From assembly GCA_020072565.1 (NCBI GenBank), contig JAIQGI010000006.1:1-64000 (forward strand): a stretch of 64,000 nt of DNA, in the 5' to 3' direction. A model generated the notes under the pieces. That model was not told where the DNA came from, searched no databases, and saw only the letters and a program-made list of their open reading frames with translations. The position numbers and the translations under genes are program-made. The stretch comes from Terriglobia bacterium. GTDB lineage: Bacteria; Acidobacteriota; UBA6911. Below are positions 28,089 to 64,000 of this stretch, one piece after another (positions within the stretch are counted from its first letter, which is position 1; each line of letters starts with the position of its first letter).

Positions 28089-28093
28089 AGCCC

Positions 28094-28321
28094 TTATTCC
28101 CTTCCGGCGCGGATCCACGACTGCACTTCCTTTGAAGTAGGCCGGCGTGTCTGCCGGCTCCAGGCGGCCTCGATCTGCTCCAGCACCGACCGCCGTTCCC
28201 CGGTGCATTGGGCCAGGAGATTTCGCACCTCCTGTTCCATGGAGCAATGGTTCCGGCGCGCCCGCGATTTCAATTCCCGCACGACCTTTGGCGGCACGTT
28301 CCTGACCGTAAGCGTCGGCAT
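28094..28321 (-). CDS. FitA/VapB-type ribbon-helix-helix antitoxin
   Basis: The protein has 75 residues. MPTLTVRNVPPKVVRELKSRA and HCSMEQEVRNLLAQC are the Arc-like RHH pattern typical of FitA. The C-terminal part, with SKEVQSWIRAGRE, should block the PIN partner, whose gene starts 5 bases downstream. Confidence 0.87.
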   Translation of the reverse strand: MPTLTVRNVPPKVVRELKSRARRNHCSMEQEVRNLLAQCTGERRSVLEQIEAAWSRQTRRPTSKEVQSWIRAGRE

Positions 28322-28537
28322 ACATCCTCCCTGCTGTCATTATGCTAGCAAATATGGATCGGTTGAGCAAGAATCGCCCGGCCGCCATCGGCATTCATTG
28401 CGGAGCGCTCACGGGAACCGCCCCGAAAATGGTTTGAATTCCTTGCCAGTTCCTATTATCTTGTTGGCATCCAAGAATTCCACTCGTACCTCCCCCAACG
28501 AGCGGCTGAGCAAGTGTGTGCTTCAGGACGCTGACTC

Positions 28538-29902
28538 ATGCCACGTGACGATCCTGTCAACGCCCGGAGGCTTCAGATCGGCAAATCGCCGGACAGGACC
28601 AACTCAATGCTGGGGAAAGCGGAAGGTGGCGCCGGAGCGCGCCGGTCTCGTGTGATCTCGCCTCCCAGAGGTCACGGGCGCTATCCGATGATGGTGTGCC
28701 TGGCGGGGATGTCGCCGGCAGTCGTAACGGAGACTCTATACGCGCTTGCCGTGAAGGGCCGCCCTCGGGTAGTTCCGCGCCGTGTCTGCATCGTAACAAC
28801 CGAAGACGCCTACGGGAAGGTTGTCGCCTCGCTTCTTGGCGCCCGGGGAGCGATTCGGCGGCTGGCATCGGAGTACCGGCTGCCGCCCGGGTCGCTTCAA
28901 TGCACTCTCGACGACGTATTTGTGATCAGGTCCCGATCCGGCAAGCCGCTTTCGGACATCCGGTCGAGCGCCGACAGCCGCGATGCGGGAGAAGCGATGT
29001 CCAGGCTTCTGGCGGACCTTCACTCTGATCCCAATGTGGAGATCCGCTGTTCGATTGCCGGAGGCAGGAAGACGATGGCGGCGCTGCTCGCGCTTGCGTT
29101 GCAGACCTGCGCGCGTACCGGCGACCGCCTGTATCACGTCCTGGTAAGCGAGCCGTTCGAGCGGATTCCCGACTTCTTCTATCCTCCCCGGTTGCGGCGA
29201 CTGTACACCGTGGACGGCCGAACGGTGGATTCAAGCAAGGCGCGGATCGACCTGGCGGAGGTTCCGATGATTCGCCTCGGAGCGGTAGCGGAATCGCTCG
29301 GACTTGGATCGGAGCAGCTTGCGTTGCGCGCCAGGAAGATCGAGGAGGCCGCGAACCGGAATTTCCGGCCGGTTCCGGTAGAAATCGATTTCGAGCGGCG
29401 GGCGCTGCGCTGTGGAACGGATGCTGTTCGGCTCCCTCCCCAGGAATTCGCTCTGTACGCGATGTATGCGGGCCTGCGCCGCAGGTGCAAATCCTGTGAA
29501 CGGAATCGCCGTCCCGCTTGCGAGCGGTGCCATCCCACGGACGGCGAGATTTATTCGCGGCACCGGCCTTTGTTGAAGGCGGTTTATTTCCTGGCGCGGC
29601 CTGCCGGAGGCCGGGGCCTGATGCAGATGCTTGCGGATGAAACCGGGAAGGGCGAAATCGCACAGAATTTCGATGAATGGTTACGGCAAACGCGCAGCCG
29701 GCTGAAATCGCATCTGCGCGCGGCGGACGCCGACGCCGTCCCGCGACTGGCGTCGATTGCGGATGCCGTCGAACTTGGCACAGAGAACGGGAAGCGTCGC
29801 GGCCTGCGCATCCCGCCGGCCCTGATCCGGTTCGCCAACGTTGGGAAGGCAGGGCTCAACGTTGATTTGCTCGCGTTTGCACGCCGCGCGCAATTACGCT
29901 GA
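28538..29902 (+). CDS. CRISPR-linked CARF protein (NE0113/TIGR02584) with winged-helix-like tail
   Basis: The protein has up to 454 residues; the true start may be ATG 28607 or even 28688, because family homology begins at MMVCLAGMSPAVVTETLYAL. The first 220 residues are the TIGR02584 Csm6-like/ring-nuclease CARF family: the N-terminal motif just given, RVCIVTTEDAYGKVV, and the second CARF motif CSIAGGRKTMAALLALALQ. Then comes a segment resembling an OmpR-type winged helix (IDFERRALRCG, VRLPPQEFALYAMYAG) with an inserted four-Cys knuckle (CKSCERNRRPACERC), and an Arg-rich C-terminus. No HEPN motif (RxxxxH) is evident. Cyclic-oligoadenylate sensing is expected from the family; DNA binding by the tail is inference. 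It is 5 kb from the Cas operons. Confidence 0.75.
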   Translation: MPRDDPVNARRLQIGKSPDRTNSMLGKAEGGAGARRSRVISPPRGHGRYPMMVCLAGMSPAVVTETLYALAVKGRPRVVPRRVCIVTTEDAYGKVVASLLGARGAIRRLASEYRLPPGSLQCTLDDVFVIRSRSGKPLSDIRSSADSRDAGEAMSRLLADLHSDPNVEIRCSIAGGRKTMAALLALALQTCARTGDRLYHVLVSEPFERIPDFFYPPRLRRLYTVDGRTVDSSKARIDLAEVPMIRLGAVAESLGLGSEQLALRARKIEEAANRNFRPVPVEIDFERRALRCGTDAVRLPPQEFALYAMYAGLRRRCKSCERNRRPACERCHPTDGEIYSRHRPLLKAVYFLARPAGGRGLMQMLADETGKGEIAQNFDEWLRQTRSRLKSHLRAADADAVPRLASIADAVELGTENGKRRGLRIPPALIRFANVGKAGLNVDLLAFARRAQLR

Positions 29903-30017
29903 AGGTCGTGAGAGAAGCTGAGAACCGCCGGTCCAGAATCTTCTGGACTGTAAGTGACGCGGCCGAAGGCTGCAAGGTCGCCCTGTCGCTCTTGTTATTA
30001 TCTGGCGAAAGGAGACA

Positions 30018-33613: not shown

Positions 33614-35533
33614 ATGATCCATCAGTTTGCCGAACTCGGTGTGTTTTACAGGGACCGAGAGGGACTCCGGCCTAGTGATTCTGTTGCGCAATACTTGCGT
33701 GACCCGGTCGCGAAATTCCGGACGAAGACCGTGCTTCTCTTGATTTTCTGCGACAAAGGCTTCGAACGGATTCAGGTCGAGGAATGCGATGCGGTGAAAC
33801 GCCGAACCTACCTCTACCGCGAAGGGCCACCCAATGGCTGGGATGCGACACCAACGTCCGGATTGCGGGGTGTGAAGGGACACGGCGATAAGGAGTATCA
33901 GGCGGCACTCCTGGAAGAGATCAGAAAGAAACTATTCCGTTTGTCGGAAAGCATCCGGGATGCGGTTGATAGGGGCGTGGATCTGCCTGAATCAGAGATC
34001 AGTCATCTTGGGAAGATTCGGGATTGGTTGAAAATTGCAGCCGGGGAAGGCAAGCCAAACATGGAGAATCGTGTCGCCCTACGGGAGAAGATTGAACAAT
34101 GCAACCCGCCTGTGGCGAAAAAAACATCCGTTGTTTCCCTGCCCGCAATCATTTCGGTTGCGTGGCAGGAAGGTAACAAGGAGTTAAAACGTGTCGGCGA
34201 CTATTCCGCGTTTCAGCAGTCGTTGGTGCGATCAGGGAAGGAGTCCGCCACAAGCAAGAAGGGTATCAAGGGTGCCGTGCAGGGAATCGGGCAATGCAGT
34301 ATCTGCGGGAAGGCGAACACTGAAGTTTCAGGGTTGCTTCAAATCCAGCAGTTCAAAGTTTACACGTTGGACAAGCCAGGCTCGGTGTCGGGGGGGTTTG
34401 ATCCGTCCGCGGCATGGCGCAACTTCCCAGCTTGCAGGGAGTGCTGCGACAAAGTGGATTTTGCCGGGGAGCGCGTGAAGAAGGAGTTGGCTTTTGACTA
34501 CTACGGCTTCAAGTACTTGCTCTTGCCATCGCCTTTGCGGCCAACGCTGACCATGGCGTACGAGTTCTTGGACAGTCTGATAAATGCACGGATCAACAAA
34601 ACCGCCAAATCCCGGTTGACTGCTGCAGAGGACGAGTTGTTTTACGTGGTATCCCAAGAAAAGAATCTCCTGCAAGTAGATTTGCTGTTCTATCAACCCG
34701 ATCCGCAGTCTTTCCGTCCTGCTTTGTATGTCTCAGGACTTTTGCCGACCCGGTTCCGAAAGCTGTTTGACGCCAAAGACGTCGTGGATAGCCATCCGTG
34801 GCTCGATGAAACAAGTCCAGTTTCATTCACGAAAGGCCAATTCACCTTTGGTTCACTCCGCAGCGTTTTCCCAGCCGCACACGGGGGTAGCACTTTTGAT
34901 GATGATTTCTTGGCTGCGACACGGGCGGCATTGGAACTGCGACCGCTTTCGACGCGTCGGCTGCTTCAAGTCGGCATGCGATGGGTTCAGGATGATTATC
35001 GACAGAACAGAGTGCGCATTATCGACAAGAAAAGGTTACCTGACTGGCAATTTCGTCTCGCTGATTTGTTTCGCACGATTCTCTTTTTCGAAACGTTGAC
35101 AGATCCAAACACAGAGAGGAGACAAGAAGATATGCAAGTCGATTACGGTGATTCCGAGCAGGCCGAGCGAGTGCGCAAAGTGCTCGACCTGGGGTCGGGC
35201 AAGCTGCGAACCGATCCCGCGCCGCAAGCAGCATTCTTGGTGGGTGCATGTTGCAGCGGGATTGAGCAAATACAGAAGGATGTGCGTGGCGCGACTCCGT
35301 TTTCGGGAAAGCTGAAGGGGTTTCGCCTCGATCAATCGGACGTTCGCGGGCTGTTTGTCGCGGCGAAGGATAAGGCGAAGGCATACGGAGAAAAGCAGGA
35401 ACCGAAAGTGAGTGCCTTGTTGGAGTTTGCTGCGGCAGCACTGGCAGCGACCCCGGACCAGTGGCCGTTATCTACCGATGAGATTTCCTATTTTTTTGCC
35501 TTGGGCCATACATTGCGACCACGGTTTGCGTAG
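33614..35533 (+). CDS. cas8b: Type I-B Cascade large subunit Cas8b (Csh1/TM1802)
   Basis: The protein has 639 residues. The mark of Cas8b/TM1802 is the split zinc ribbon near residues 220-275: CSICGK, then FKVYTLDKPGSVSGGFDPSAAW and FPACRECCDK. The N-terminus (MIHQFAELGVFYRD) and the C-terminal YFFALGHTL also fit. Cas8b recognises the PAM and recruits Cas3. It is the first gene of cas8b-cas7-cas5-cas3-cas6. Length and motifs are complete, so a functional protein is expected. Confidence 0.88.
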   Translation: MIHQFAELGVFYRDREGLRPSDSVAQYLRDPVAKFRTKTVLLLIFCDKGFERIQVEECDAVKRRTYLYREGPPNGWDATPTSGLRGVKGHGDKEYQAALLEEIRKKLFRLSESIRDAVDRGVDLPESEISHLGKIRDWLKIAAGEGKPNMENRVALREKIEQCNPPVAKKTSVVSLPAIISVAWQEGNKELKRVGDYSAFQQSLVRSGKESATSKKGIKGAVQGIGQCSICGKANTEVSGLLQIQQFKVYTLDKPGSVSGGFDPSAAWRNFPACRECCDKVDFAGERVKKELAFDYYGFKYLLLPSPLRPTLTMAYEFLDSLINARINKTAKSRLTAAEDELFYVVSQEKNLLQVDLLFYQPDPQSFRPALYVSGLLPTRFRKLFDAKDVVDSHPWLDETSPVSFTKGQFTFGSLRSVFPAAHGGSTFDDDFLAATRAALELRPLSTRRLLQVGMRWVQDDYRQNRVRIIDKKRLPDWQFRLADLFRTILFFETLTDPNTERRQEDMQVDYGDSEQAERVRKVLDLGSGKLRTDPAPQAAFLVGACCSGIEQIQKDVRGATPFSGKLKGFRLDQSDVRGLFVAAKDKAKAYGEKQEPKVSALLEFAAAALAATPDQWPLSTDEISYFFALGHTLRPRFA

Positions 35534-35585
35534 ATACCTACGAACCCCAAACCAGCTAACCTCAATGAAAGGAGAACCAAACATC

Positions 35586-36653
35586 ATGGAAGCGGCGAAA
35601 ACGGAGAAGCCAGAACCCATCACGACACGTACCGAGATCTTATTTGTGTATGACATTGCCGACGCCAATCCGAATGGCGATCCAAATGACGAGAACCGGC
35701 CCAGGATGGACTTGGAGGCGGGGCGAGCCAAGGTATCCGATGTCCGTCTGAAACGGACAATCCGTGACTATTTGCATGATTATTGCGGAGAAGAGATCTT
35801 TTGCCGCCAGATCGAGAAAGCCGACGGCACAATTCAAGAAGGCAAGGACCGCGCAGAGGACTTCTTTGAGCAACTCTCGAAGGACGCCAAAAAGGACGTC
35901 AAAAATGTTCTCGAGAAACGGGACTTTATTGAGGCTGGAGTCATCGCACAGTGTATTGACATCCGTCTTTTTGGCGCCACGATACCGGTATCGGGGCTCA
36001 AGAAGGAAGGAAAGGACTCAAGCGTTACACTCACCGGCGCTGTGCAATTTGCCATGGGAACAACGTTGCATCGCGTTGAGCCGCGGTTCATCAAGGGAAC
36101 GGGTGCGTTCGCTTCCGGCCAAGGCGCACAACAGAAGACATTTCGCGAGGAATATAACCTGCCGTATGGCTTGATCGCGATCTATGGAATTGTGAACCAG
36201 AAGGCAGCAGAAACCACGAAGCTCACGAGCGAGGACGCGGAAAGACTCTACGAGGCGATCTGGTACGGGACGAAGAGCCTGATCACTCGGTCAAAAATCG
36301 GGCAGCGCCCTTTGTTACTGGTGCTCGTGGAGTACGATGATGGCCATTCAAAGCACTATGTCGGGCGTCTCGACCAGTTCTTAGACTTGAAACGGGGAAA
36401 AGATGGCGGGGTGACCATTGGCGAGCCGAGTGCGAACGGGGATTGCGAAATCCGCGATGAAGCGCTCCGTGATGTCACCCAAGTCACGCTTGACATCACA
36501 GAGTTGGGCAAGGTTCTGTCGGGTCGAAAGGAAAGGATTGCGCGAATCCGGTTCGCATGGAACAAGCTTCTGAAGCTATCGCAGGAGCCACAGGAACAGG
36601 ACGCCAAATGGACGTTTCTGGGATGCAATGCAGAGAAGCTGGAGTTTGATTGA
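35586..36653 (+). CDS. cas7: Type I-B Cascade backbone Cas7 (Csh2)
   Basis: The protein has 355 residues. The start at 35586 follows GAAAGGAG, and the Csh2 signature comes at once: EILFVYDIADANPNGDPNDENRPRMD in overlapping pieces (YDIADANPNGDP; NDENRPRMD), then VSDVRLKRTIRDYL. The middle shows FGATIPV and GAVQFAMGTTLHRV. Cas7 coats the crRNA spacer in multiple copies. The stop is one base before the cas5 ATG. Confidence 0.92.
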   Translation: MEAAKTEKPEPITTRTEILFVYDIADANPNGDPNDENRPRMDLEAGRAKVSDVRLKRTIRDYLHDYCGEEIFCRQIEKADGTIQEGKDRAEDFFEQLSKDAKKDVKNVLEKRDFIEAGVIAQCIDIRLFGATIPVSGLKKEGKDSSVTLTGAVQFAMGTTLHRVEPRFIKGTGAFASGQGAQQKTFREEYNLPYGLIAIYGIVNQKAAETTKLTSEDAERLYEAIWYGTKSLITRSKIGQRPLLLVLVEYDDGHSKHYVGRLDQFLDLKRGKDGGVTIGEPSANGDCEIRDEALRDVTQVTLDITELGKVLSGRKERIARIRFAWNKLLKLSQEPQEQDAKWTFLGCNAEKLEFD

Positions 36654-36654
36654 G

Positions 36655-37371
36655 ATGGGTAGAGACTTTGTGGTTTTCGATGTGGCGTCCGACATGGCGC
36701 ACTTTCGGCGGCAATACGCGATCACTACCGCTCTGACGTATCCCATTCCGCCACGGACGGCGCTGTGTGGACTAGTCGGGGCAATTCTTGGCTTGCCAAA
36801 GAACGAGTCACTAGAACACTTCCAAGATAGCGAAGCGGTGTTCGGATTGCAGATCCTGAACCCTCTTCGCACAGGACAGGTCTCCATCAATCTGGTGGAT
36901 ACGAAACAAAACCCGACCTTTCGGCTCAAAGCTGTGAATCCTCGCACAACGATGCGATATGAGGTCGTGCGGCAGCCTCGCTACCGGGTGATGTTCAGCC
37001 ATCCCACGCTCGGTCATCAATTGGCGGCATCGCTGAACCAGGGCGAGTCGTGTTACACCCCCTGTCTGGGACTTGCCTGGATGATCGCTTGGTTCGGAGA
37101 TGAGGTCCAAATTGTAGAGGCGCAGGAAGTCTCCAACGACAAGGAGCATCGGGAATTCGTCTCGCCTGTGCGCTCGGATGACTTGCAAGACGAAATCCGT
37201 TGGAACACGGAAGGGGTTTACCAGCGGATACGTCTGCCAGCTGTTATGCAACCCAACCGCCAAGTGACTCGATACGAGGCTTACGTGATTGATACCTCGG
37301 GACGTTCCATCCAGGCGTCGTTGACGACGTATTGGAGATTAGTTGATGGTACTTGCTTTTCTGCATTGTGA
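36655..37371 (+). CDS. cas5: Type I-B Cas5
   Basis: The protein has 238 residues. The N-terminal RRM with FVVFDVASDMAHFRRQYA, and then TYPIPPRTALCGLVGAILG, is the standard Cas5 signature. Cas5 binds the 5' handle of the crRNA, here expected to be AUUGAAGC. It begins one base after cas7 and overlaps the start of cas3. Confidence 0.9.
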   Translation: MGRDFVVFDVASDMAHFRRQYAITTALTYPIPPRTALCGLVGAILGLPKNESLEHFQDSEAVFGLQILNPLRTGQVSINLVDTKQNPTFRLKAVNPRTTMRYEVVRQPRYRVMFSHPTLGHQLAASLNQGESCYTPCLGLAWMIAWFGDEVQIVEAQEVSNDKEHREFVSPVRSDDLQDEIRWNTEGVYQRIRLPAVMQPNRQVTRYEAYVIDTSGRSIQASLTTYWRLVDGTCFSAL

Positions 37372-39658
37372 ATCTCACCCCGGGCGATTGTTAATCGATC
37401 ATCTGCTGGACGTGAGGAACAGGCTCGGTCTTGACGATGCGCATTGGCTCGCATGCGCAGGTTTGTTCCATGATGTCGGTAAGGCTACGAGCTTTTTCAA
37501 CGAATACCTACATGGAAAGAAGATCCCTCCGGAGCTAAGCCGTCATGCCGAAATCGGAGCGTTTTGGTTGATGGAGGTTATAAAGCCGATCGTTGCCTCA
37601 GGGAGAGGTATGACACCTGTGGAGGCGGCGCTGGCTATTCTCTTTGTCCGTCGCCACCATGGGAGTCTGGACGACCTGTTCGATGGAATAACCCTCCCTG
37701 ATCAGCGCACTCTAGACAGGTTGCACAAGCAACTAGGATCGATGGACGTTGAGGGAATCGCAGGTTGGTTGGTGAAACGTCTTGGCGGGTCGATATCCCG
37801 TCCCGTTCTGGACAGTCATAGCCTGACTGAGCTTCGAGTGAAAACGAAAAATGCGCTGCGTCAGCCCTGTCCCGATGTCGAGGCGATGGTGCGTTTTCAA
37901 ACGGCGATTCGCGACTTTGGCCGCCTCATCGAAGCCGACCGTGATTCGGCGGCCAAATATGCCGCTGGAAGCTTCGACGCTCCGCCACAACTCTCATTAG
38001 AACATCTTGCCGCATTCCGCTGCCGCGGGAATTTTGGTGCGACGACGGAACCTGTGGTTGCGGCTGCAAGGAACCGAGTTTATACGTCAGCGGTCGCCCA
38101 CGTCCATGATCGTCCGGCGAATTTGGGTCACCTTTGGACTCTGACCGTTCCCACTGGGGCAGGAAAGACACTCGCCGCACTGGGCTGGGCATTGGCCCGT
38201 CGGCAAGCTCGCGCGAAGAAGGGTCTGAGGAGTTGCCCGATTATCTACGCGCTCCCGTTCACGAGCATCATTGACCAGAACGTGGCGGTTATCCTCAAGC
38301 TCTGGGGCGATGGTACGGTCGATGAGAGCTCGCTTGCAGTCCATCACCATCTTGCTGAGCCGGGACAGATTGAACGAGGTGGCGAGGCATCACTGGCTCG
38401 AAGTTGGGTTGAAGGTTGGCGCGCCGACATCATCTGCACGACCTTCGTACAGATCGTTGGTGCAATGTTCCATGCCACGTCCGCTAATGCCCGGCGGTTT
38501 AACAAGTTGGCCGGGTCAATCCTAATTCTGGATGAGGTCCAAGCATTTCCAGCCGAGCTATGGCCGGTATTGAGGGTAGCGCTTCAGTCGCTCAGCCAAC
38601 GGTTTCAAACAGACATTCTCTTGGTTACTGCCACCCAGCCAGCGCTTTTCTCGCAATTGGAGAGAGAAGAAATCGGTGTTGAGTCGCCGGAGTTTGTGAC
38701 GGTCTTTGACCGCTATGACGTGTATGTCGATGCCACTATTCCGCTGACCGTGGAAGACTTAGCGCGTCAGATTGCCACCGAGTTGTGCAAGAACGATAAT
38801 GGTTCATGTTTGATCATTCTAAACACCGTAAGAGAGGCTCTCGAACTGTACGCTTCATTGGCGAAGGCGCCCAATCTTCGTGAATATCGGCTCTTTCACC
38901 TTTCCACCAATTTACGCCCTAAGGACCGAACTGAAATTCTGAAACAGCTGAACACTTGCCGCCAGCCTCATATTCTCGTGGCCACCCAAGTGGTCGAAGC
39001 CGGCGTAGACCTGTCGTTTGATGTCGTATTCCGGGCCTTGGCTCCGCTCGATGCGATCGTCCAAGCAGCAGGACGATGCAACCGGCATGGCAATGGCCGT
39101 CGCGGGATAGTCCATGTTTTCGATTTAGAGGGCAACAGCGGAGTTATCGTTTATGGGCGCGTTCACATTTGCCTAGCACGAGAAGTTTTCCAGGACAGAA
39201 CGTCGTTTCGCGAGCCAGACCTGCGCAATCTCGTGAACCAGTATTTTGAGAGGTTGGAGAACCGTTTGGGCCACGACGCAGCTAAAAAGATCCTGGAGGC
39301 TGTGCGGATGATGCAGTTTGCGGCTTTGCGCGGAGAAGGTGAAGACAAAGATCGGGACGCCAAAGCCGTACAACTTATCTACGACGCTCCAAACCGAATC
39401 GCCCACTTTGTGGAAACTGACGAATCGGATGAACGCGTATGGAAGCAACAGACAGCGGCCCTTCAACTGCCTGACTTAATTGCCCGGCGAAAGCGGCTGC
39501 GGACGCTGCGCAATGAGCTGGCTCAACGGGTGGTGGAAATTCCGCGGCAACACACATATCAAACCGAACCAGATGACCGGTCTGGTTATGTTTACGTCCC
39601 ACAGTCAGTTTCGTCCGATTATTACGACACAACGACCGGATGGAAGAGAAACCGATGA
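37346..39658 (+). CDS. cas3: Cas3 HD nuclease-helicase
   Basis: The protein has 770 residues. The start at ATG 37346 lies inside cas5. The HD nuclease domain is N-terminal: the metal residues appear in CAGLFHDVGKATSFF and in RRHHGSL. The SF2 helicase has motif I TVPTGAGKTLAALGW, motif II ILDEVQAFPAE, motif III TATQPA and motif VI QAAGRCNRHG. Cas3 degrades the DNA strand displaced by Cascade. All key residues are present. Its stop overlaps the start of the next gene (ATGA). Confidence 0.95.
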   Translation: MVLAFLHCESHPGRLLIDHLLDVRNRLGLDDAHWLACAGLFHDVGKATSFFNEYLHGKKIPPELSRHAEIGAFWLMEVIKPIVASGRGMTPVEAALAILFVRRHHGSLDDLFDGITLPDQRTLDRLHKQLGSMDVEGIAGWLVKRLGGSISRPVLDSHSLTELRVKTKNALRQPCPDVEAMVRFQTAIRDFGRLIEADRDSAAKYAAGSFDAPPQLSLEHLAAFRCRGNFGATTEPVVAAARNRVYTSAVAHVHDRPANLGHLWTLTVPTGAGKTLAALGWALARRQARAKKGLRSCPIIYALPFTSIIDQNVAVILKLWGDGTVDESSLAVHHHLAEPGQIERGGEASLARSWVEGWRADIICTTFVQIVGAMFHATSANARRFNKLAGSILILDEVQAFPAELWPVLRVALQSLSQRFQTDILLVTATQPALFSQLEREEIGVESPEFVTVFDRYDVYVDATIPLTVEDLARQIATELCKNDNGSCLIILNTVREALELYASLAKAPNLREYRLFHLSTNLRPKDRTEILKQLNTCRQPHILVATQVVEAGVDLSFDVVFRALAPLDAIVQAAGRCNRHGNGRRGIVHVFDLEGNSGVIVYGRVHICLAREVFQDRTSFREPDLRNLVNQYFERLENRLGHDAAKKILEAVRMMQFAALRGEGEDKDRDAKAVQLIYDAPNRIAHFVETDESDERVWKQQTAALQLPDLIARRKRLRTLRNELAQRVVEIPRQHTYQTEPDDRSGYVYVPQSVSSDYYDTTTGWKRNR

Positions 39659-41130: not shown

Positions 41131-42450
41131 ATGACACGTAAGATTGCTGCATGTCCGACGCCGCCCCAAGACCGCAACGCATGGCGGGGATTGGATCGGC
41201 TCGAATACGATATTACCCTCGTTACCCCCATGTTCGGCGGAGGTGTCATCCCTGGGGAAGCGGATCCCGTGACATTGATCCGGCCACCGACAATTCGCGG
41301 CCAGCTGCGCTTCTGGTGGCGGGCGTGCCGCGGTGCCGGCTTCACTGAGCCGCCGGATCTTCATCAGCGTGAGGTTGGAGTCTGGGGAGACACCGAGCAT
41401 CCCAGCCCGATTATCGTGGAAGTCTCACTTCGAGATAAAGGCAGGGTAGAACCATGCCCTCGGTCTCGGCCCGGCTATCCAGCGTATGCTCTGTTCCCAT
41501 TCCAAAGTGCTGAGCGCGGCATCGGCAAAGGCGTCCACGATGCCCGATTCATGCTGCGGTTCACTTTCCCGGCGGAGGTGAAGGATGATCTGGAGGCTTC
41601 GATCTGGGCCTGGATGAACTTTGGGGGCATCGGGGCTCGCACTCGCCGGGGATGCGGAGCACTCTGGTGCGCGCAGGTAAGCCCACCAGATGCGAACAGG
41701 ACCGATATCCTGGAATGGCTCAAAGAAAGTTGTGCGAAGCATAAGGCGACCGGGCCCACCATCCCGCCATTGTGGGCAAAACTGGGCCGGTTTTGGATCG
41801 GACCTAAGTCTTCTTCTCCATTTGAAGTCTGGAACGACATCATCAGACTTCTGCGCGACTTCAGGCAGGGCCCTGGTACTGGGAGAAATCCCGGAACTGA
41901 GGCAAACCGGCCCGGAAGATCTCGTTGGCCCGAGGCGGAATCCATCCGTAATGCGACACGATGCCGCAGTCGCCGTCACCAGTCGGCCAACCAAATGCCG
42001 AATGAGGCGTTTCCGCGGGCTGAATTCGGAATGCCGATCGTCTTTCATTTCAAGGACGGCCCGCGCAAGGATTCAAGGCTCTCGTCACGTGAACTGGCCC
42101 CTCTCGATCCGACAGACACCGAGATTCACCCAACCGTAGGTGAAAATCCCAAAACTCGAATGGCGAGCCCTCTCATTCTCAAGCCCCTCGCTATCGATCC
42201 CGACCAGGCGTTCCCACTCATCCTTTTGCTGAATGCGCCTCGACCATCTGCAGTGCAATTGGTTTCGGATGCGGCATCGATCGGCACGTTTCCTCGAACC
42301 TCAATATGCAATGCAGAATTCGCAACTTATCCAAACTCTCCCATGGGGCCGCCCCGGGCCGGAATGGCGGCTCGTTCGAACGATGGCTCAGCAATAGAGG
42401 CGTTTCTGGCTTATGCCGGGGAGAATGGCTACAAGGAGGTTGAGCTATGA
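41131..42450 (+). CDS. cmr1: Type III-B RAMP protein Cmr1
   Basis: The protein has 439 residues. The Cmr1 N-terminal RRM is clear: YDITLVTPMFGGG, then LIRPPTIRGQLRFWWRACRG. A second RAMP region contains the GIGARTRRGCGALW glycine loop. Cmr1 sits near the 3' end of the crRNA in the Cmr complex and helps to bind target RNA. GAAGGAAG precedes the ATG. It is the first gene of a tightly packed operon; the stop overlaps cmr2 (ATGA). Confidence 0.9.
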   Translation: MTRKIAACPTPPQDRNAWRGLDRLEYDITLVTPMFGGGVIPGEADPVTLIRPPTIRGQLRFWWRACRGAGFTEPPDLHQREVGVWGDTEHPSPIIVEVSLRDKGRVEPCPRSRPGYPAYALFPFQSAERGIGKGVHDARFMLRFTFPAEVKDDLEASIWAWMNFGGIGARTRRGCGALWCAQVSPPDANRTDILEWLKESCAKHKATGPTIPPLWAKLGRFWIGPKSSSPFEVWNDIIRLLRDFRQGPGTGRNPGTEANRPGRSRWPEAESIRNATRCRSRRHQSANQMPNEAFPRAEFGMPIVFHFKDGPRKDSRLSSRELAPLDPTDTEIHPTVGENPKTRMASPLILKPLAIDPDQAFPLILLLNAPRPSAVQLVSDAASIGTFPRTSICNAEFATYPNSPMGPPRAGMAARSNDGSAIEAFLAYAGENGYKEVEL

Positions 42451-44228
42451 CCGGACACCTCCTTGCAATCAACATCGGGCCAGTGCAGGACTTTATTGCC
42501 GCGGCGAGGCGGACTCGGGACCTGTGGTTTGGGTCCCACATGCTTTCGGAAGTCAGCAAGGCAGCGGCGCTGGCAATTCAGGAGATCGCCGGCATGGATG
42601 CACTTATCTTTCCGGCCCCGGATAATGAAACGGATTTGCAGCCGACACCCGATGGTGCAGATTCGAAGCTCCTTGTGGCGAACGTAATCCTGGCGCTCAT
42701 TCCGCAGGGGATAGATCCGTGCGAGGCGGCCGCCCAGGCCAAGTGCGCCGCCGGTGCGCGCTGGCGCGAATTTGCCGAAGATGCCCGCCGTCAGGTGGCC
42801 GACCTGGTTCGAGGCGATATCTGGAACGACCAGCTTGATGATGTCATCGAGTTCTATTCGGCATGGGTTCCTTTTCCGCTCGGCGGTGACTATGCCAGGG
42901 CTCGCGCTCGCGTCATGCGGCTGCTCTCGGCCCGCAAATCCTGTCGCGACTTTCAGCAGCCGCGGCTGAGTGCGGAAATGCGCCGGGTTCCCAAGTCTTC
43001 CCTCGACGGCGCTCGCGAAACCGTGCTGAAAAAAGGAGTGGAAGGTTCCGCCCGTCTTCGACTCTCCAAGGGGGAGCAATTGGATGCGATCGGACTTGCC
43101 AAACGGCTCGCAGCCGGCGTCCAATCCTACCCCTCGGTCGCGCGCATCGCCGCCGATCCGTGGCTTCGCCGTTTGGCTGATCTGCCGAAACAACAACTGG
43201 CGGCCGAGTGTGAGAAGCTCGCACCTGGCATTCTCAGCCGGGTTCAAGACCCCGTTTATTCGGATTTCCCATACGAAGGCACGGCAGTCTATATAGACCG
43301 TCACGCATCCATCGCGGTTGAGGCTGGCGTCGAAAGGGCTCGACTTTCGGAACTCACCAGAATCGTGGGCGATCTCACCAAATCCCGGGTGAAGGACGGC
43401 TTTGGCAAACCGGATCCATACCTTGCCGTCGTCGTGGCCGACGGCGATCGCATCGGAGCAATCCTCTCCAGGCTTAGGACTCCCGACGAGCACAGGGTTT
43501 TATCGCGACAGCTCTCGAAATTCGCAGCCGCGGCTCGCTCGATTGTCAAAGATTTACGCGGCGTCTGCATATATGCGGGCGGCGACGACGTCCTGGCATT
43601 TCTCCCGCTGGATCAATGTCTGAAGTGTGCCCGCACGCTTCGGGATCGGTTCGAAGAATTGCTTGGCCCTGTCAGCGGCGGCCCGCCGAATATCTCGGTC
43701 GGGATTGCCATTGCCCACTTCATGGAGCCGCTCGAGGATTTGAGAGCTTACGCCAGGGGTGCCGAATTGGCCGCCAAGAGAGCTACCTCGAGGGCTCCGG
43801 GCAACGAGCACTTCGGCGGACGCAACGGGCTGGCCGTGCACGTACATCCCCGCGGTGGTGTTTTCTTCGGAGTCAGGGAGCGCTGGCAGGAGGGCGACTC
43901 GTCGCTGGAACGACGGTTGGATCGATGGGCCGGGCTATTCCAGACGCGCCGCCTGCCCCAAAAACTGCCCTACGATGTTCGAGAGCTGGCTTCGACTTAC
44001 AAGTCCTGGTCGTCAAAAGATACCCTTTCCAATGCGCTTCAGGCAGACTGCGCCAGGCTGCTGAGCCATAAACAGGTTTGGAAAGCAGAACAGGAGTTAC
44101 TGTTGGCGCAACTGCGGGCTGCAACAGATGCGGAGGGCCTGTTGCGCTTTTCCGCAGAGTTGCTTGTCGCCCAAAATCTCGCCGAGCCAAATCTGGAATC
44201 CGCTCGGATGGAAGAAGGGACGAGGTGA
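42447..44228 (+). CDS. cmr2: Type III-B Cas10 (Cmr2) without HD domain
   Basis: The protein has 593 residues, shorter than usual Cmr2 (about 850). It begins directly with the palm-adjacent motif INIGPVQDFIAAARRTRDLW, and the N-terminal HD nuclease domain is absent. The palm cyclase is intact: VVVADGDRIGAIL and the catalytic GGDD in CIYAGGDDVLAFLP. A CLKC follows and may form part of a zinc site. Cyclic oligoadenylate synthesis on target RNA binding is predicted, but not DNA cleavage by an HD site. It is coupled to cmr1 and cmr3. Confidence 0.92.
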   Translation: MTGHLLAINIGPVQDFIAAARRTRDLWFGSHMLSEVSKAAALAIQEIAGMDALIFPAPDNETDLQPTPDGADSKLLVANVILALIPQGIDPCEAAAQAKCAAGARWREFAEDARRQVADLVRGDIWNDQLDDVIEFYSAWVPFPLGGDYARARARVMRLLSARKSCRDFQQPRLSAEMRRVPKSSLDGARETVLKKGVEGSARLRLSKGEQLDAIGLAKRLAAGVQSYPSVARIAADPWLRRLADLPKQQLAAECEKLAPGILSRVQDPVYSDFPYEGTAVYIDRHASIAVEAGVERARLSELTRIVGDLTKSRVKDGFGKPDPYLAVVVADGDRIGAILSRLRTPDEHRVLSRQLSKFAAAARSIVKDLRGVCIYAGGDDVLAFLPLDQCLKCARTLRDRFEELLGPVSGGPPNISVGIAIAHFMEPLEDLRAYARGAELAAKRATSRAPGNEHFGGRNGLAVHVHPRGGVFFGVRERWQEGDSSLERRLDRWAGLFQTRRLPQKLPYDVRELASTYKSWSSKDTLSNALQADCARLLSHKQVWKAEQELLLAQLRAATDAEGLLRFSAELLVAQNLAEPNLESARMEEGTR

Positions 44229-44231
44229 TGC

Positions 44232-45437
44232 ATGGCTAACTTCCTTACATTGACTCCCCGCGATCCTGTGGTTGCCCGGGACGGCCGTCCCTTCGGAATA
44301 CGCCAGGGGAACCGCATGCGATCGCTGAGTTGGCTCTATCCCTCAGTTCTGGCTGGTTCCCTCCGCACCATGCTGGGTAAAGAAGCGGGCGGCGTCTTCG
44401 ACCCTGTCATGGTTGACGGTCTAAAACAGATTTCCATCGCGGGCCCGATGCCTCTGATCGGCAACGAGCTGTTCTGCCCGCGGCCCCTGGATAGTCTTGT
44501 GCAGGAACAGGAAGGCCGGCGCAAAGCACTCGCCATGCGACCGGCGGATCCGGCTGATGGAGAAGGATGCAACCTCCCCCAGGGGCTATCCCCCGCGATG
44601 CTTGATTACGATGGTGAGGATTTCAAACCGGGGAACGCGCCGGCATTCTGGTCGACGGCTCGTTTGAAGCAATGGTTGCTCGATCCTGGCGGCCGGAATT
44701 TCGATTTTCCGCCAGATTCTCCGGGTACGGATTCATGTGACGGATTTCTCAATGCCGCGGAACGAGACGAACGTATTCACGTCCAAATGGACTCCGGCAA
44801 AGGTGTGGGATGCGAGGAGAGAATCTTTGTTTCCGCGGGTCTCGACCTGACCCGGCGCGGATCCGCGGAACCATGGCCTCTGGCGGTCCGTGTGATTGCC
44901 GATCAGAGTTGGCGTCGATTTCTGGATGGTTTGGACTCACTCCACCCACTCGGCGGCGAGCGCCGGCTCGTTCGCTGGCTGCATTCCGATGAAAAGCACG
45001 CAGCCAGGCTGTGGGACTGCCCTGTCGAAATCAACAGAGCTCTTGCCGAAAGCCGCAAGGTACGCATGGTTATCGCAACTCCGGCGATCTTTGCACAGGG
45101 GTGGAAGCCGGGATGGCTCAACGACGGCCCGGACGGTCTCGAGGGCAGTCCTCCCAATTCGACTCTGCGGCTTCGTCTTGTCAGTGCGGTTATCGAACGC
45201 TGGAAAGCCATCTCCGGTTGGTCACTCGAAGCTGGCCGCGTCGGCCCCAAGCCCGTCCGCCGGGCGGTGCCGGCCGGCAGCGTCTATTTCTTCAAAATCA
45301 TCGGAGGCGCGGCAAGCGATTTGTCCCGCCTTTGGCTGCAGTCTGTCTGTGACGATGAACAGGACCGACGCGACGGGTTCGGCCTGACTCTCTGGGGAGT
45401 CTGGGAACGAACGCCGGCGCCGAAATCAGGAGCGTAA
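44232..45437 (+). CDS. cmr3: Type III-B Cmr3 (Cas5-like)
   Basis: The protein has 401 residues. The Cmr3 start LTLTPRDPVVARDGRPFG and the SLSWLYPSVLAGSLR helix are characteristic. The end is typical too: PAGSVYFFKIIGG and DGFGLTLWGVWE. Cmr3 binds the 5' handle of the crRNA and contacts Cmr2. It begins 3 bases after cmr2. Confidence 0.9.
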   Translation: MANFLTLTPRDPVVARDGRPFGIRQGNRMRSLSWLYPSVLAGSLRTMLGKEAGGVFDPVMVDGLKQISIAGPMPLIGNELFCPRPLDSLVQEQEGRRKALAMRPADPADGEGCNLPQGLSPAMLDYDGEDFKPGNAPAFWSTARLKQWLLDPGGRNFDFPPDSPGTDSCDGFLNAAERDERIHVQMDSGKGVGCEERIFVSAGLDLTRRGSAEPWPLAVRVIADQSWRRFLDGLDSLHPLGGERRLVRWLHSDEKHAARLWDCPVEINRALAESRKVRMVIATPAIFAQGWKPGWLNDGPDGLEGSPPNSTLRLRLVSAVIERWKAISGWSLEAGRVGPKPVRRAVPAGSVYFFKIIGGAASDLSRLWLQSVCDDEQDRRDGFGLTLWGVWERTPAPKSGA

Positions 45438-45442
45438 CAATT

Positions 45443-46363
45443 ATGGCAAATAACACTCGTCTGTACTGGCTGCACGCTTTGACGCCGTTGCACGTCGGCG
45501 CCGGACGCGGTCTCGGCTACATCGACCTTCCGATCATGCGGGAGAAAGTCACAAACTGGCCGCTTGTTCCCGGTTCCACGGTCAAGGGCGTGATAGCCGA
45601 TCACCACAATGCGACCGAAAAGAAACGACTAGATGACCACCTCTACCGAGCGGCTTTCGGAATTGCCGATCCGGGTGAAAGGTCCGAGGGAGGATCGAAC
45701 TCCGGCTCACTGGTTTTCACGGACGCCCGTCTGGTGTGCCTGCCGGTGCGGAGCCTTTACGGGACCTTCGCCTGGTGCAGCTCGCCCATGGCGCTCAGAC
45801 GTTTGTACCGGGACATCGAAGCGGCCGGGAAAGAGGACGAGGAACTGCAGGCTCCCATCGACCCTGCCGATGACCATGTCCATTTGCCTCTGGTCGCGGG
45901 TTCCGAACTTACGGACGGGCAGGATCGGGTATTCTTCGAAGACCTGGACTTCCGGGCCCGCGACTGTCCCGTAACGAAAGCCTGGTCAAGCAAGCTTTCC
46001 CAATGGCTCTTCACCGATGCCGACTGGCAGAAGATCTTTGAGGCCCGTTTCGCCGTCGTTCCGGATAACGTGTTTAATTTCCTTTGTGAGACCGGCACCG
46101 AGGTTGCGGCCCGGGTGCGCATCAACGAAGAAACCAAGACGGTGAAGAGCGGCGCCCTCTGGTATGAAGAAGCGCTGCCCGCCGAATCGATTCTCTGCGG
46201 GCTGGTTTGGTGCGACCGCGTGTTCGGGTCGAACGGCGGCCAAATCCCAGCTCCCATAGACCTGCTGGACAGGTTTTGTTCCACGGTGGAAAAGCCGCCT
46301 CTTCAAATTGGAGGCAAGGCCACCGTCGGGCGCGGGCAGGTGCGCTGCGTATTCTGTGCGTGA
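45443..46363 (+). CDS. cmr4: Type III-B backbone RNase Cmr4 (Cas7-like)
   Basis: The protein has 306 residues. Residues 8-45 read YWLHALTPLHVGAGRGLGYI, DLPIMREKVTNWPLVPGST and VKGVI, the Cmr4 consensus. Asp28 in the GYIDLPI loop corresponds to the catalytic Asp that cuts target RNA every 6 nt, so RNase activity is expected. The C-terminal glycine loop is PPLQIGGKATVGRGQV. It begins 5 bases after cmr3. Confidence 0.93.
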   Translation: MANNTRLYWLHALTPLHVGAGRGLGYIDLPIMREKVTNWPLVPGSTVKGVIADHHNATEKKRLDDHLYRAAFGIADPGERSEGGSNSGSLVFTDARLVCLPVRSLYGTFAWCSSPMALRRLYRDIEAAGKEDEELQAPIDPADDHVHLPLVAGSELTDGQDRVFFEDLDFRARDCPVTKAWSSKLSQWLFTDADWQKIFEARFAVVPDNVFNFLCETGTEVAARVRINEETKTVKSGALWYEEALPAESILCGLVWCDRVFGSNGGQIPAPIDLLDRFCSTVEKPPLQIGGKATVGRGQVRCVFCA

Positions 46364-46390
46364 ACTCGATATCGAGAAGGAGCTGGATCC

Positions 46391-46765
46391 ATGGAAAGCA
46401 GGCAAATAAAGACATGCAGCCAGGAATGGGCTGAACGAGCTTACCAGTGCATCAGCAATCGCGGTAGAGACGAATCCGGCCGCGGTGAGTATTGCAGCTT
46501 TGCCAAGCGCTTCCCCTCACTGATCCATGCCTGCGGACTGGCGCAGGCCCTTGCATTCGCAGTCGCCAAGAAGCACACCGGATTTGTGGGTGATCTCGAA
46601 ACCGTGCTGGGCGAGAGCGGCCTTGGCGAGCGCAGTCGGAAGGCGCCCGTGCCGGAATACCTGCGCCTCAGCCGCAGGGCTCTTCAGGCGGCAGGGTGGC
46701 TGAAACGATATGCCGAAGCGTTGCTGGACAGCGAGAACGGAGGCGCCGATGCAAGCCTGTCGTAA
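46391..46765 (+). CDS. cmr5: Type III-B small subunit Cmr5
   Basis: The protein has 124 residues, all helical: QIKTCSQEWAERAYQCI, YCSFAKRFPSLIHACGLAQA and PEYLRLSRRALQAAGWLKRYA match Cmr5. It lines the complex opposite Cmr4. AGAAGGAG precedes the ATG. The gene overlaps cmr6 by 17 bases. Confidence 0.9.
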   Translation: MESRQIKTCSQEWAERAYQCISNRGRDESGRGEYCSFAKRFPSLIHACGLAQALAFAVAKKHTGFVGDLETVLGESGLGERSRKAPVPEYLRLSRRALQAAGWLKRYAEALLDSENGGADASLS

Positions 46766-47861
46766 CGCCGTCGTCGATGTGAACCGAGGGAACCCCAGAG
46801 TATCTCACCCAGGCCTGCTTCTGAGTCGCTACCTGCGGATCGGCAACTCAGGTCAGGACAAGACAGATCATCAAGACGACAAGCGCAAACTTCTGGACGA
46901 CACTCGACAGGCAGCCGCGACAGCCGGTCGGCTGTATCAGCATTTCTTTCAGCAATGGCATGATAACCTGCCGCCGTCGACGCGGCGGACCGTCCTTTCC
47001 GTTCAGGGGCGACTGATCATTGGGCTTGGCGCTGACAACGTGCTGGAAACCGGCATCACGCTACACCACACCTATGGAGTGCCTCTCATCCCCGGCTCCG
47101 CACTTAAAGGTCTTGCCGCACATTATTGCGACCAGGTGTGGGGAGAGGCCGAATCGAAATTTAACAAGCGGGGGGAATCCTACAAAATCCTCTTTGGCGC
47201 GGAACTTGACTCGGGGCATATCATCTTTTATGACGCCTGGATCGATCCTGCCTCGTTAACATGCCGGGACAATCTCGGGCTTGTTCTCGATGTAATGACT
47301 CCACATCATGGCGAATACTACTCAGGAAAGAATCACCCTCCCAGCGACTTCGACGATCCGAACCCAATCCAATTCCTGTCCGTATCAGGCAATTTCCATT
47401 TTGCTGTTGCTGCCGATGTGGATAGCGAGGATGGGCTGAAGTGGGCACAACTCGCTCTCGATCTTTTGCAGGAGGCGCTTGCGAACTGGGGCGTAGGGGG
47501 GAAGACGTCGAGCGGTTATGGACGACTTCGTCCGTCAACGGCACAGCTTTCAGGAGAAGCAGCGAGTTACATTCCGCAAAAGCCGAACAGCAAACCGGCG
47601 GCAATTCGCTACAAGCGCGGCGATCGAATCCGGGTCAAACGCATAGAAGACATAGCCGGTCGTGGCAAGGTCCGGTTCCAAGCAGAGGATGGTACGATCG
47701 GCCACTTTGGCAAGCCGGAATTTCCACCGAATGCGGCAGTCGGCGAATCCGTCGAGGTATGGGTGGCGAATGTCGGAGCGGATACCTACATGCTGACCCT
47801 GAGAAAGCCGGCGCCGAAACAAGGGCGCTCCTCCAGAGGAGAAAGAGGGAGCCGCCGATGA
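46749..47861 (+). CDS. cmr6: Type III-B Cmr6 with a C-terminal OB-like extension
   Basis: The protein has 370 residues. The RAMP core has QGRLIIGLGADNVLETG, HHTYGVPLIPGSALKGLA, DVMTPHHGEYY and GVGGKTSSGYGRL. After the normal Cmr6 end (about residue 265-290) there is an extra segment, GDRIRVKRIEDIAGRGKVRF, FPPNAAVGESVEVWVANVGA, whose strand pattern resembles an S1/cold-shock OB fold, and a basic tail (KQGRSSRGERGSRR). The extension may add RNA contacts; that is inference. Start at 46749 inside cmr5; stop overlaps the next gene. Confidence 0.88.
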   Translation: MQACRNAVVDVNRGNPRVSHPGLLLSRYLRIGNSGQDKTDHQDDKRKLLDDTRQAAATAGRLYQHFFQQWHDNLPPSTRRTVLSVQGRLIIGLGADNVLETGITLHHTYGVPLIPGSALKGLAAHYCDQVWGEAESKFNKRGESYKILFGAELDSGHIIFYDAWIDPASLTCRDNLGLVLDVMTPHHGEYYSGKNHPPSDFDDPNPIQFLSVSGNFHFAVAADVDSEDGLKWAQLALDLLQEALANWGVGGKTSSGYGRLRPSTAQLSGEAASYIPQKPNSKPAAIRYKRGDRIRVKRIEDIAGRGKVRFQAEDGTIGHFGKPEFPPNAAVGESVEVWVANVGADTYMLTLRKPAPKQGRSSRGERGSRR

Positions 47862-49057
47862 AAGTGCTTCTCTGTCTCCTTTCCGATCAGCATGTGCCGA
47901 ACCTGCTGTCGGTGCACCACTTTCGGCCCGACAGGCTTGTCCTGGTGGAATCCGCCGTGATGAAGCGGAAGCAGACATCGAATTACTTCCTTACAGCTTT
48001 GAAGCTTGGCGGACTTGATTTTGGGGATAATTGCTATGTCCAGCAACTCGAACGAGAGGATGACCTGGCCGCGATACGCCATGCCTTGCGACAAGCGTTC
48101 GCAAGATGCCCGGGCGAAGAATGGATCGCTAATCTTACCGGCGGCAACAAGCCCATGTCGATCGCCGCTTACGAGTTCTTCAACGCGGTCGGCGCCCGTC
48201 TTATCTATGTAAATCTCCCGGCGCCGAACGTCTTCCTGGGGCTTGACGGACAGGTCGCGGAAACCTGTATCTATCGTCCACCCATCAAGGAGTTCCTGGC
48301 AGGGTATGGATTCGAATCCCGCAAGGCGGATGAAGCGGTGAGGCAATCCGAAAACCGTGCCCGCATGTGGTGGGATTGCGCCCGACTGATCGCCGCTTCC
48401 GATCCCGCACCGAGGCTGCTTCATTTCAGCGGCTCGCCCGAAGAAAAAAGAAAGCAATGGAATCGCGCGCGTGACAAAGGGCTGGATATGCTCCCCGAAC
48501 AATTTGGCCCCGCCGCTCCCGAGGTTTGCGACGCCGTCCGGGCCTGCTTCGATCTGCAATTCGCCGGCAATGCGCTCAAAGGCAGGTTGGACAAACATGC
48601 CGTCGAGTTTTTAACCGGCGGCTGGCTCGAGGCCTTCCTTTTTGGTCTGCTCGAACGTCATGCCCCAGCGTTGAATTGCTGGGATATCCGTCTTGGGATT
48701 TGCCCGGGGAAGGTGGGAGCATCAGCGGACAACGAATTCGATATCACCTTTATGCGGGAATACGGCCTCGCCATGATCGAATGTAAGTCCGGCGCGCAGG
48801 AACACGATCCCGACGCGGGCGCCTTATACAAAATCGAAGCGGCGGTGCGCCAGTTCAGGGCGCTGCGCGTGCGCTCTTACCTCGCAACGACGTCCGCGAA
48901 CGTATTGGAAGCGGGCAAGCTCAAACCCGCGATCCGCAACCGGGCCGATCTCTATGGTTGTCGGGTTCTTGTAGCTGATCAGATCCGGCAACTGGCCGGC
49001 AATCCCGACTCTGAGTTAACACGCCGGTTCTTTTTCGATCCCCAGGAAGAAAATTGA
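47858..49057 (+). CDS. card1: Card1/Can2-type cOA-activated nuclease (CARF + DUF1887)
   Basis: The protein has 399 residues. The N-terminal CARF domain starts MKVLLCLLSDQHVPNLL, with the ligand loop ANLTGGNKPMSIAAYEF near residues 90-106. The C-terminal PD-(D/E)XK nuclease shows Asp295 in NEFDITF and Glu308-Cys-Lys310 in MIECKSG. Card1/Can2 enzymes bind cyclic tetra-adenylate and then nick DNA and cut RNA. The ATG overlaps the cmr6 stop, so it is made with the Cmr complex whose Cmr2 palm should make its activator. Confidence 0.9.
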   Translation: MKVLLCLLSDQHVPNLLSVHHFRPDRLVLVESAVMKRKQTSNYFLTALKLGGLDFGDNCYVQQLEREDDLAAIRHALRQAFARCPGEEWIANLTGGNKPMSIAAYEFFNAVGARLIYVNLPAPNVFLGLDGQVAETCIYRPPIKEFLAGYGFESRKADEAVRQSENRARMWWDCARLIAASDPAPRLLHFSGSPEEKRKQWNRARDKGLDMLPEQFGPAAPEVCDAVRACFDLQFAGNALKGRLDKHAVEFLTGGWLEAFLFGLLERHAPALNCWDIRLGICPGKVGASADNEFDITFMREYGLAMIECKSGAQEHDPDAGALYKIEAAVRQFRALRVRSYLATTSANVLEAGKLKPAIRNRADLYGCRVLVADQIRQLAGNPDSELTRRFFFDPQEEN

Positions 49058-63562: not shown

Positions 63563-63702
63563 ATCTGCACGTTCACCTGGCCTGCGCGCTTCTCTGGCAG
63601 GACTTTCTGACTGAGCCCGTAACGCTGGCAACATTTGATCGGGGTGTGTGGGCCGCGGCGGGTCGGGCAGGCCTTCGTGTCTGGCCTCCCTCCGTTGAGT
63701 AG
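63563..63702 (+). pseudogene. C-terminal stump of a PIN-domain toxin
   Basis: Immediately after the last repeat the frame reads LHVHLACALLWQDFLTEPVT, then LATFDRGVWAAAGRAGLRVW. This is the last third of a VapC-type PIN domain with its final Asp (ATFDR). The rest of the gene is missing at the array boundary. Confidence 0.65.
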
Positions 63703-63898
63703 CAACTGCGCGGAAACCGACCCACATTGCCTGCCTCGTGGCGCCAGATCAATCTTGAGCAGTTTCAGGACATTCCATTTCCCGGGACATGCTAAAAACG
63801 CTGCGCACCATGCCTTGAGTCCGCGATCGCCTTGGCAAAGATGCGCATTTTGACCTAAAGTGTGGTTATCAAAATGGCTTGCTCGCGGTTTCCGCATA
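63703..63898. other. Intergenic region
   Basis: No gene is supported between the PIN stump and the duplicated LolA-like leader. Confidence 0.35.
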
Positions 63899-64000
63899 TC
63901 GATGTCAACCGATGGGAGCGCTGTCGCGTACCATGCGCCGAGGGATTGATTTTTCAATCAGAATCCGGAAGATTCATGTTCGCTCACTCGATCGCTCAGC
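63899..64000 (+). pseudogene. Second copy of the LolA-like gene with internal deletion, running off the edge
   Basis: 63904-63934 repeats the region upstream of the LolA-like gene (20754-20784) with three differences in 31 bases, and the GGAAGATTCATG start region is shared. From ATG 63976 the sequence jumps to the internal MFAHSIAQ segment found at 21437 in the other copy. The joint lies at TCATGTT, a 7-base word present at both ends of the deleted segment (20816 and 21434). Confidence 0.65.

Follow-up and report, generated by a model that had tools for sequence, protein, structure and literature searches.

Type III CRISPR alarm signalling is known mainly through effectors that damage the cell, and bacterial transcription controlled by cyclic oligoadenylate (cOA) is little documented. 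In archaea, Csa3 couples a CARF sensor to a winged helix and Csa3a has a promoter palindrome of its own (PMC8699464); specific DNA binding dependent on cyclic tetra-adenylate (cA4) could not be demonstrated for Csa3. Among other CARF proteins, Cad1, a CARF5 relative, and Cam1 bind cA4, the motif II lysine being essential for this binding in Cad1 (PMC12669630, PMC10808066), and Can2 and Csx16 are likewise cA4 proteins (PMC9704534, PMC12409355). NE0113, which lacks an effector domain, was predicted by Makarova et al. in 2014 to be a transcription regulator (PMC4012209). The protein analysed herein belongs to the NE0113 family (TIGR02584/PF09623; CARF5--CARF in PADLOC, whose library model names no C-terminal domain) and is encoded in a 64,000-nucleotide stretch of a Terriglobia bacterium (contig JAIQGI010000006.1), hereafter the window. 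Together with its relatives it makes up a family that we call CARF5-wHTH (wHTH, winged helix-turn-helix), and we consider it likely that these proteins are cOA-responsive one-component transcription factors, most likely activators.

The family comprises at least 508 related loci, many of which are recorded in metagenome assemblies; none were found among the viral contigs searched, and within the class no closer relatives of the window protein were found. That protein is divergent, with at most 37% identity to its relatives, and forms a long branch of unsure position in a tree of 87 proteins. The preliminary description of this DNA had placed a CARF protein at 28538-29902 with an N-terminal half resembling TIGR02584/NE0113, and both statements hold: all 454 codons of the plus-strand frame are open, and the N-terminal half scores above the cut-offs of TIGR02584 (175.3 bits, E=1.6e-51; curated cut-off 80.65) and PF09623 (116 bits, E=2.5e-33; cut-off 23). 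The conserved protein starts at 28688/28691 (ATGATG), the point at which homologues begin (start codons across relatives are mostly inferred), and the first 50 residues of the frame have a counterpart in no relative; therefore, position 28538 is not an established start, and the unconserved extension from 28538 to 28687 may be untranslated. Residue numbers below refer to the conserved core unless stated otherwise. The PADLOC CARF5--CARF profile (PDLC01904) matches residues 51-432 of the frame, that is, up to core residue 382 (E=1e-73). When the CARF portion of an AlphaFold2 (AF2) model was compared with known structures using Foldseek, the best matches were Crn1 ring nucleases, the CARF domain of Cad1, and Cam1. 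The ligand-loop residues G-x-[ST]-P and S-x-AGGRKT are present in the window protein and are invariant or nearly so over 87 aligned proteins: Ser/Thr9 of motif I is retained in 82 of the 87, and in motif II, which lines up with the AGG-K-T loop of Cad1, S122, G125, G126 and R127 are invariant and K128 is found in 86.

The C-terminal half could be assigned from the family as a whole. A single-sequence search of the PDB gave no real match for the protein, and Pfam searches with all members singly gave a wHTH match in none and nothing convincing in the C-terminal half. A profile of 85 homologous C-terminal halves, searched blind against the whole PDB, returned OmpR/PhoB-type DNA-binding domains as all of its top 17 matches (KdpE, E=2.4e-4; RstA, E=8.5e-4), with no MarR-type domain among the matches. 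The AF2 model of the full protein (mean predicted local distance difference test score, pLDDT, of 85; 87 sequences in the alignment) orders this half as three strands, a helix at residues 251-266, the cysteine segment discussed below, short helices and a long helix at residues 323-345, and a model of the C-terminal half alone (pLDDT 77) has a wing strand at residues 380-383. The resulting predicted topology, strand-strand-strand-helix-...-helix-wing, is that of OmpR. The receiver domain of OmpR/PhoB response regulators is absent from the N-terminus, where the CARF domain takes its place.

Four cysteines lie between helix 1 and helix 2 of the predicted winged helix. At least three cysteines occur at the same place in 26 of 91 proteins, including that of the window, mostly as C-x6-8-C-x2-C-x2-C; the position is shared, and the spacing C-x2-C-x7-C-x2-C is peculiar to the window protein. 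In the tree, nearly all cysteine-bearing proteins, the window protein with them, fall into one group of 28 (the Cys clade), and 53 cysteine-free proteins fall into another. Because four cysteines within 15 residues are rare in shuffles of the window protein (2.2%) and their position is conserved across the clade, we take the cluster not to be a product of chance, and it probably forms a structural zinc site shaping the turn that joins helix 1 to helix 2. The preliminary description had read an OmpR-like winged-helix pattern containing VRLPPQEFALYAM and a four-cysteine knuckle in this half; VRLPPQEFALYAM is present, the PDB profile matches and the AF2 topology agree with the fold, and the knuckle occupies a position conserved through most of one clade.

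Evidence that the family acts on DNA comes from the promoters of its genes. The regions upstream of six Accumulibacter-like loci could be aligned only over a single invariant block, CGCAAGCTTGCC. Amongst 61 de-duplicated non-Cys loci, the palindrome CAAGCTTG lies 84-227 bp 5' of the gene in 40, as against 0.32 in first-order Markov simulations (maximum 4), and the runner-up among all 256 eight-base palindromes is found in 5 loci. The flanks of CAAGCTTG vary from lineage to lineage yet remain symmetric (GGC/GCC, GAC/GTC, CAC/GTG), with flank base 1 complementary in 50 of 56 sites versus 38 expected. Compared by clade, the palindrome is upstream of 34 of 54 non-Cys genes and of 0 of 16 Cys genes (Fisher p=4e-6), and the site tracks the gene across phyla. 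It also precedes csm1 in 13 of 23 cases and cas2 in 6 of 13, against a background of 3.9% of random stretches, as well as csm2 and accessory genes in family loci. When 14 genomes were picked by the protein alone, at least one of which was already in the first set, CAAGCTTG was found no more than 240 bp upstream in 7 and within about 1.7 kb in 3 more. These counts should be read with the knowledge that the data in which the operators were discovered also supplied their first counts, that the independent sets are small, and that the null models are simple shuffles. The bare 12-mer GGCAAGCTTGCC was rejected as a genome-wide marker, being unspecific: it occurs in 152 of 250 genomes, with chance coding copies in nuoG and fusA.

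The Cys clade has an operator of its own, which short-word scans missed and which was spotted by eye and scored afterwards. It consists of two copies of a palindrome in tandem, GAAANNTTTC-N-GAAANNTTTC, spaced by 11 bp and located either 5' of the gene or just past its stop ahead of a cas operon, and at a threshold of at least 14/16 it is found in 15 of 28 Cys-clade loci (null, 3/1400). Both operators stand at a set distance from a promoter. A -10-like hexamer lies exactly 29 nt after CAAGCTTG: its A2 and T6 are both present at this offset in 61%, 58% and 57% of three disjoint sets of sites (before the gene, after it, and elsewhere, respectively), a figure that never exceeds 16% beyond offsets 27-31. 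The corresponding offset for the Cys clade is 28 nt, counted from the second palindrome, with a -10 there in 62%. The distance from the centre of the (proximal) palindrome to the -10 is consequently 33 nt for both operator types, about -45 from the transcription start, and the non-Cys promoters have no conserved -35. Of 14 genomes that have the gene, 6 contain the palindrome plus -10 composite, compared with 13 of 236 that lack it (p=1.8e-4), and the genes behind such sites include csm1, csm2, cas2, cmr1, cas6, one for a CARF protein and a DuOB-DUF488 module. A position 33 nt from the -10 is activator-type, being where class II activators sit. Both domains, the matching of operator types to protein clades and the fixed operator-to-(-10) spacing are features computed for the family; as two unrelated sequences hold the same promoter position, one per protein clade, homologous regulators binding them are the best explanation.

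From these observations we infer that the proteins bind the palindromes, that cOA switches them, and the sign of the regulation. In the mechanism proposed, an N-terminal dimer of CARF5-clade CARF domains would bind a cOA, probably cA4, that the Cas10 encoded in the same locus produces, and the C-terminal OmpR/PhoB-type winged helix would bind palindromic DNA beside promoters; ligand-controlled activation of the regulator's own gene, cas10, other type III operons and accessory genes would then constitute positive feedback. We propose control by cA4 because Cad1 and Cam1 bind this molecule and because Can2 and Csx16 accompany some family members; a Can2-like effector shares the window locus. The genomic context is in keeping with such a ligand source: the window has a type III-B system with a GGDD Cas10, relatives likewise reside in type III loci, and the family gene runs in the same direction as cas6, csm1 or cmr genes and is usually their neighbour. 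On a broader proposal our judgement is evenly divided, namely that these proteins govern a bacterial cOA regulon in which, upon phage detection, they activate -35-less promoters via two clade-specific palindrome codes (own gene, cas10, csm2, cas2, the accessory DuOB-DUF488 module, EcsC and CARF effectors), with the window member representing a divergent zinc-knuckle branch that uses a third code.

Other explanations account for parts of these data. A site next to the -35 region is compatible with repression, and many one-component regulators repress their own genes, so that an apo-protein held beside the -35 region of cas promoters and released by cOA would also yield induction. We regard this as credible, though unlikely: promoters with a -10 at fixed spacing and no conserved -35, such as those of the non-Cys loci, are typical of activator-dependent promoters, and OmpR/PhoB-type proteins mostly activate from such sites. 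It is less probable still that the proteins are ring nucleases degrading cA4, whose winged helix serves merely for dimerisation or as a nucleic-acid anchor. Such a role would suit the closest folds (Crn1 and Cad1-CARF), the retained motif I Ser/Thr9 and motif II Lys128, the cleavage of cA4 by Cad1 of the same clade (PMC12669630) and the NCBI family name, 'CRISPR-associated ring nuclease Csm6', but it leaves the clade-matched promoter palindromes and the fixed -10 spacing unexplained, and a dedicated csx16 ring nuclease adjoins the gene in several loci. With the motif residues kept, ring-nuclease activity of the window protein is nonetheless possible, and a self-reset of this kind could operate alongside cA4-controlled activation.

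Instead, the palindromes might be sites of some other conserved factor, a WYL protein or another host regulator, with the CARF protein no more than a companion in the same loci. CRISPR loci often have a WYL regulator nearby, as does the window (26491-27501), but we hold this to be distinctly improbable given that no other regulator family was seen recurring in the loci (the other protein families recurring in more than 12 fetched loci are all cas genes) and that two unrelated operator types segregate with two protein clades at an identical promoter position. Very remote, in our estimation, is a C-terminal half that acts as a nuclease or other toxic effector, such as a Csm6-like HEPN domain, notwithstanding the Csm6 of the NCBI name and the predominance of nucleases among CARF partners. 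This half does contain two R-x(4-6)-H matches, but both residues occur in only 1 of the 87 aligned proteins, that of the window, so that, judged by conservation, HEPN is ruled out, in agreement with the absence of a HEPN motif in the preliminary description; no PD-(D/E)xK-like pattern is found there, the protein matches no effector family in Pfam, NCBIfam or PADLOC, and the profile matches are of OmpR type.

Several observations weigh against cOA-responsive activation by CARF5-wHTH proteins, particularly with regard to the window member. The eight best Foldseek matches of the C-terminal model are all OmpR-type, but their E-values of 0.66-2.7 and probabilities of at most 0.51 make this fold comparison, taken alone, weak and not significant. 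Sites are missing from roughly one in three non-Cys loci and one in two Cys-clade loci, and a different regulator could bind the palindromes. For Csa3, cA4 had no measurable effect on specific DNA binding (PMC8844856, PMC8699464). Finally, the window gene, besides being on a long branch, lies 11 kb from the cmr genes, and scans covering its flanks and the start of every cas operon in the window found neither CAAGCTTG, GAAANNTTTC nor the palindrome plus -10 composite. The reading in the preliminary description, a protein that binds DNA under cOA control and has an OmpR-like winged helix and a cysteine knuckle, is well supported at the level of the family, and the window member fits it in all but the operators. 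Of the targets suggested there, the protein's own promoter is favoured by the operators upstream of most relatives, though both types are absent from the window gene, and the nearby toxin belt is unsupported; the toxin genes near the window gene show no operator site.

The features of the window are collected in the Table below. An inverted repeat past the stop of the CARF gene, one of five distinct inverted repeats in 55 kb (arms of at least 8 bp, gap of at most 4), counts as no more than a weak operator candidate: it has a single perfect copy in the window and no -10 at the family spacing, and its near-matches genome-wide are no commoner than those of a reversed control. A near-palindrome upstream of cas8b (33408-33427) was set aside as being at chance level (five such in 55 kb versus 1.6 expected), with just one near-match elsewhere in the genome. 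The profile match of the window Cas10 begins at residue 4, and for this reason the protein apparently lacks an N-terminal HD domain; since AGGDD is kept and the HD domain is apparently missing, Cas10 is expected to signal, and the III-B system should work by signalling alone. The gene at 39640-40404 encodes a Cas56g-like fragment, a 254-aa protein whose match is confined to the C-terminal half of a fused type I-G Cas5-Cas6 (PDLC01778, profile positions 225-448); we read it as a free-standing Cas6-like protein of a hybrid I-B/III-B locus. Directly upstream of the CARF gene are the WYL protein, a WYL/WCX regulator that is an alternative regulator of the window's CRISPR island, and a PIN-domain protein (27684-28394). 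The repeat of the CRISPR array, GTTTCCGCGATCAATTGATCGCGGCCCCATTGAAGC, holds a 20-bp perfect palindrome.

Table. Features of the window and the evidence for each (residues of the CARF protein in core numbering; AF2, AlphaFold2).
Feature	Position	Strand	Basis
CARF5-wHTH open reading frame, 454 codons	28538-29902	+	open frame
CARF5-wHTH conserved core, 404 codons	28688..29902	+	homologue starts, alignment, TIGR02584/PF09623/PDLC01904 matches
CARF domain, residues 1-197	28688..29278	+	TIGR02584/PF09623 profiles, AF2 pLDDT mostly >90
CARF motif II S122-x-A-G-G-R-K128-T, ligand loop	29051..29074	+	conservation in homologues
OmpR/PhoB-type winged-helix domain, residues 229-383	29372..29836	+	PDB profile search, AF2, Foldseek
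Four-cysteine knuckle C267-x2-C270-x7-C278-x2-C281	29486..29530	+	sequence; between helix 1 and helix 2
Predicted recognition helix, residues 323-345	29654..29722	+	AF2 helix 323-345; family consensus S-K-[LI]-x-R-x-L
Inverted repeat GTCCAGAA-TC-TTCTGGAC, 18 bp, 29 bp past the stop	29931..29948	.	unconfirmed, weak operator candidate
Type I-B cas8b, cas7b, cas5b, cas3	33614..39658	+	profile matches
Type III-B cmr1, cas10, cmr3-cmr6	41131..47861	+	profile matches
cas10/cmr2, 593 aa, AGGDD cyclase motif	42447..44228	+	PDLC01422 E=3e-82; sequence
Can2/Card1-like CARF-PD-(D/E)xK effector	47852..49057 (listed ORF 47441-49057)	+	CARF4--CARF_PDDEXK E=1.4e-47
CRISPR array, >115 repeats, continues past the window end	55201..64000	.	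repeat unit GTTTCCGCGATCAATTGATCGCGGCCCCATTGAAGC

Some relatives exhibit arrangements of interest in their own right. A DuOB (PF22557) gene lies 65-85 bp downstream of CAAGCTTG in three different bacteria (loci L137, 2072-3186; L086, 8018-8677; and L160, 7173-8897), accompanied in L137 and L160 by DUF488 genes, and is a candidate addition to the type III regulon. Another contig of the Methylohalobius genome with locus L137 (G419) carries a second type III-B locus, with three GGCAAGCTTGCC sites before its operons, and one regulator may serve both loci. In the Allochromatium plasmids with loci L160 and L162, CAAGCTTG is present five times per plasmid in the surroundings of the CARF gene, preceding genes for EcsC, SHOCT and hypothetical proteins. 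The CARF-wHTH locus on pALVIN01 of Allochromatium vinosum has CACAAGCTTGTG / GGCAAGCTTGCC promoters, and A. vinosum DSM 180, a type strain, would be a convenient test system.

Collectively, these results supply a widespread bacterial family with predicted binding sites and a promoter geometry explicit enough to be tested directly, and the predicted sites point to accessory defence genes as well. Relative to the 2014 prediction, the OmpR type of the winged helix, the cysteine clade with its knuckle and the operators appear to be new, as we found no report of them in the literature searched, which was largely open-access and did not include the 2020 CARF classification. The NCBI name 'CRISPR-associated ring nuclease Csm6' is misleading for CARF-wHTH proteins devoid of HEPN (e.g., WP_012972302.1). 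Crn1, Sso1393 (a Crn1 CARF fused to a wHTH), Cad1 and Cam1 have the CARF folds nearest to that of the window protein, which keeps the motif residues but lacks the adenosine deaminase or membrane domain of Cad1 and Cam1. With the OmpR/PhoB response regulators KdpE, RstA and PmrA the family shares the wHTH profile, the predicted topology and, in the Cys clade, tandem sites spaced by 11 bp; it differs in that CARF replaces the receiver, helices 1 and 2 are separated by a cysteine-cluster insert, and the sites are palindromic. Csa3 also joins a CARF sensor to a winged helix and is associated with CRISPR-associated promoter palindromes (CAPPa); however, Csa3 has a MarR-like wHTH, belongs to archaeal type I-A loci and is paired with TCCC-N8-GGGA, whereas CARF5-wHTH proteins have an OmpR-like wHTH and reside mostly in bacterial type III-A/B loci.
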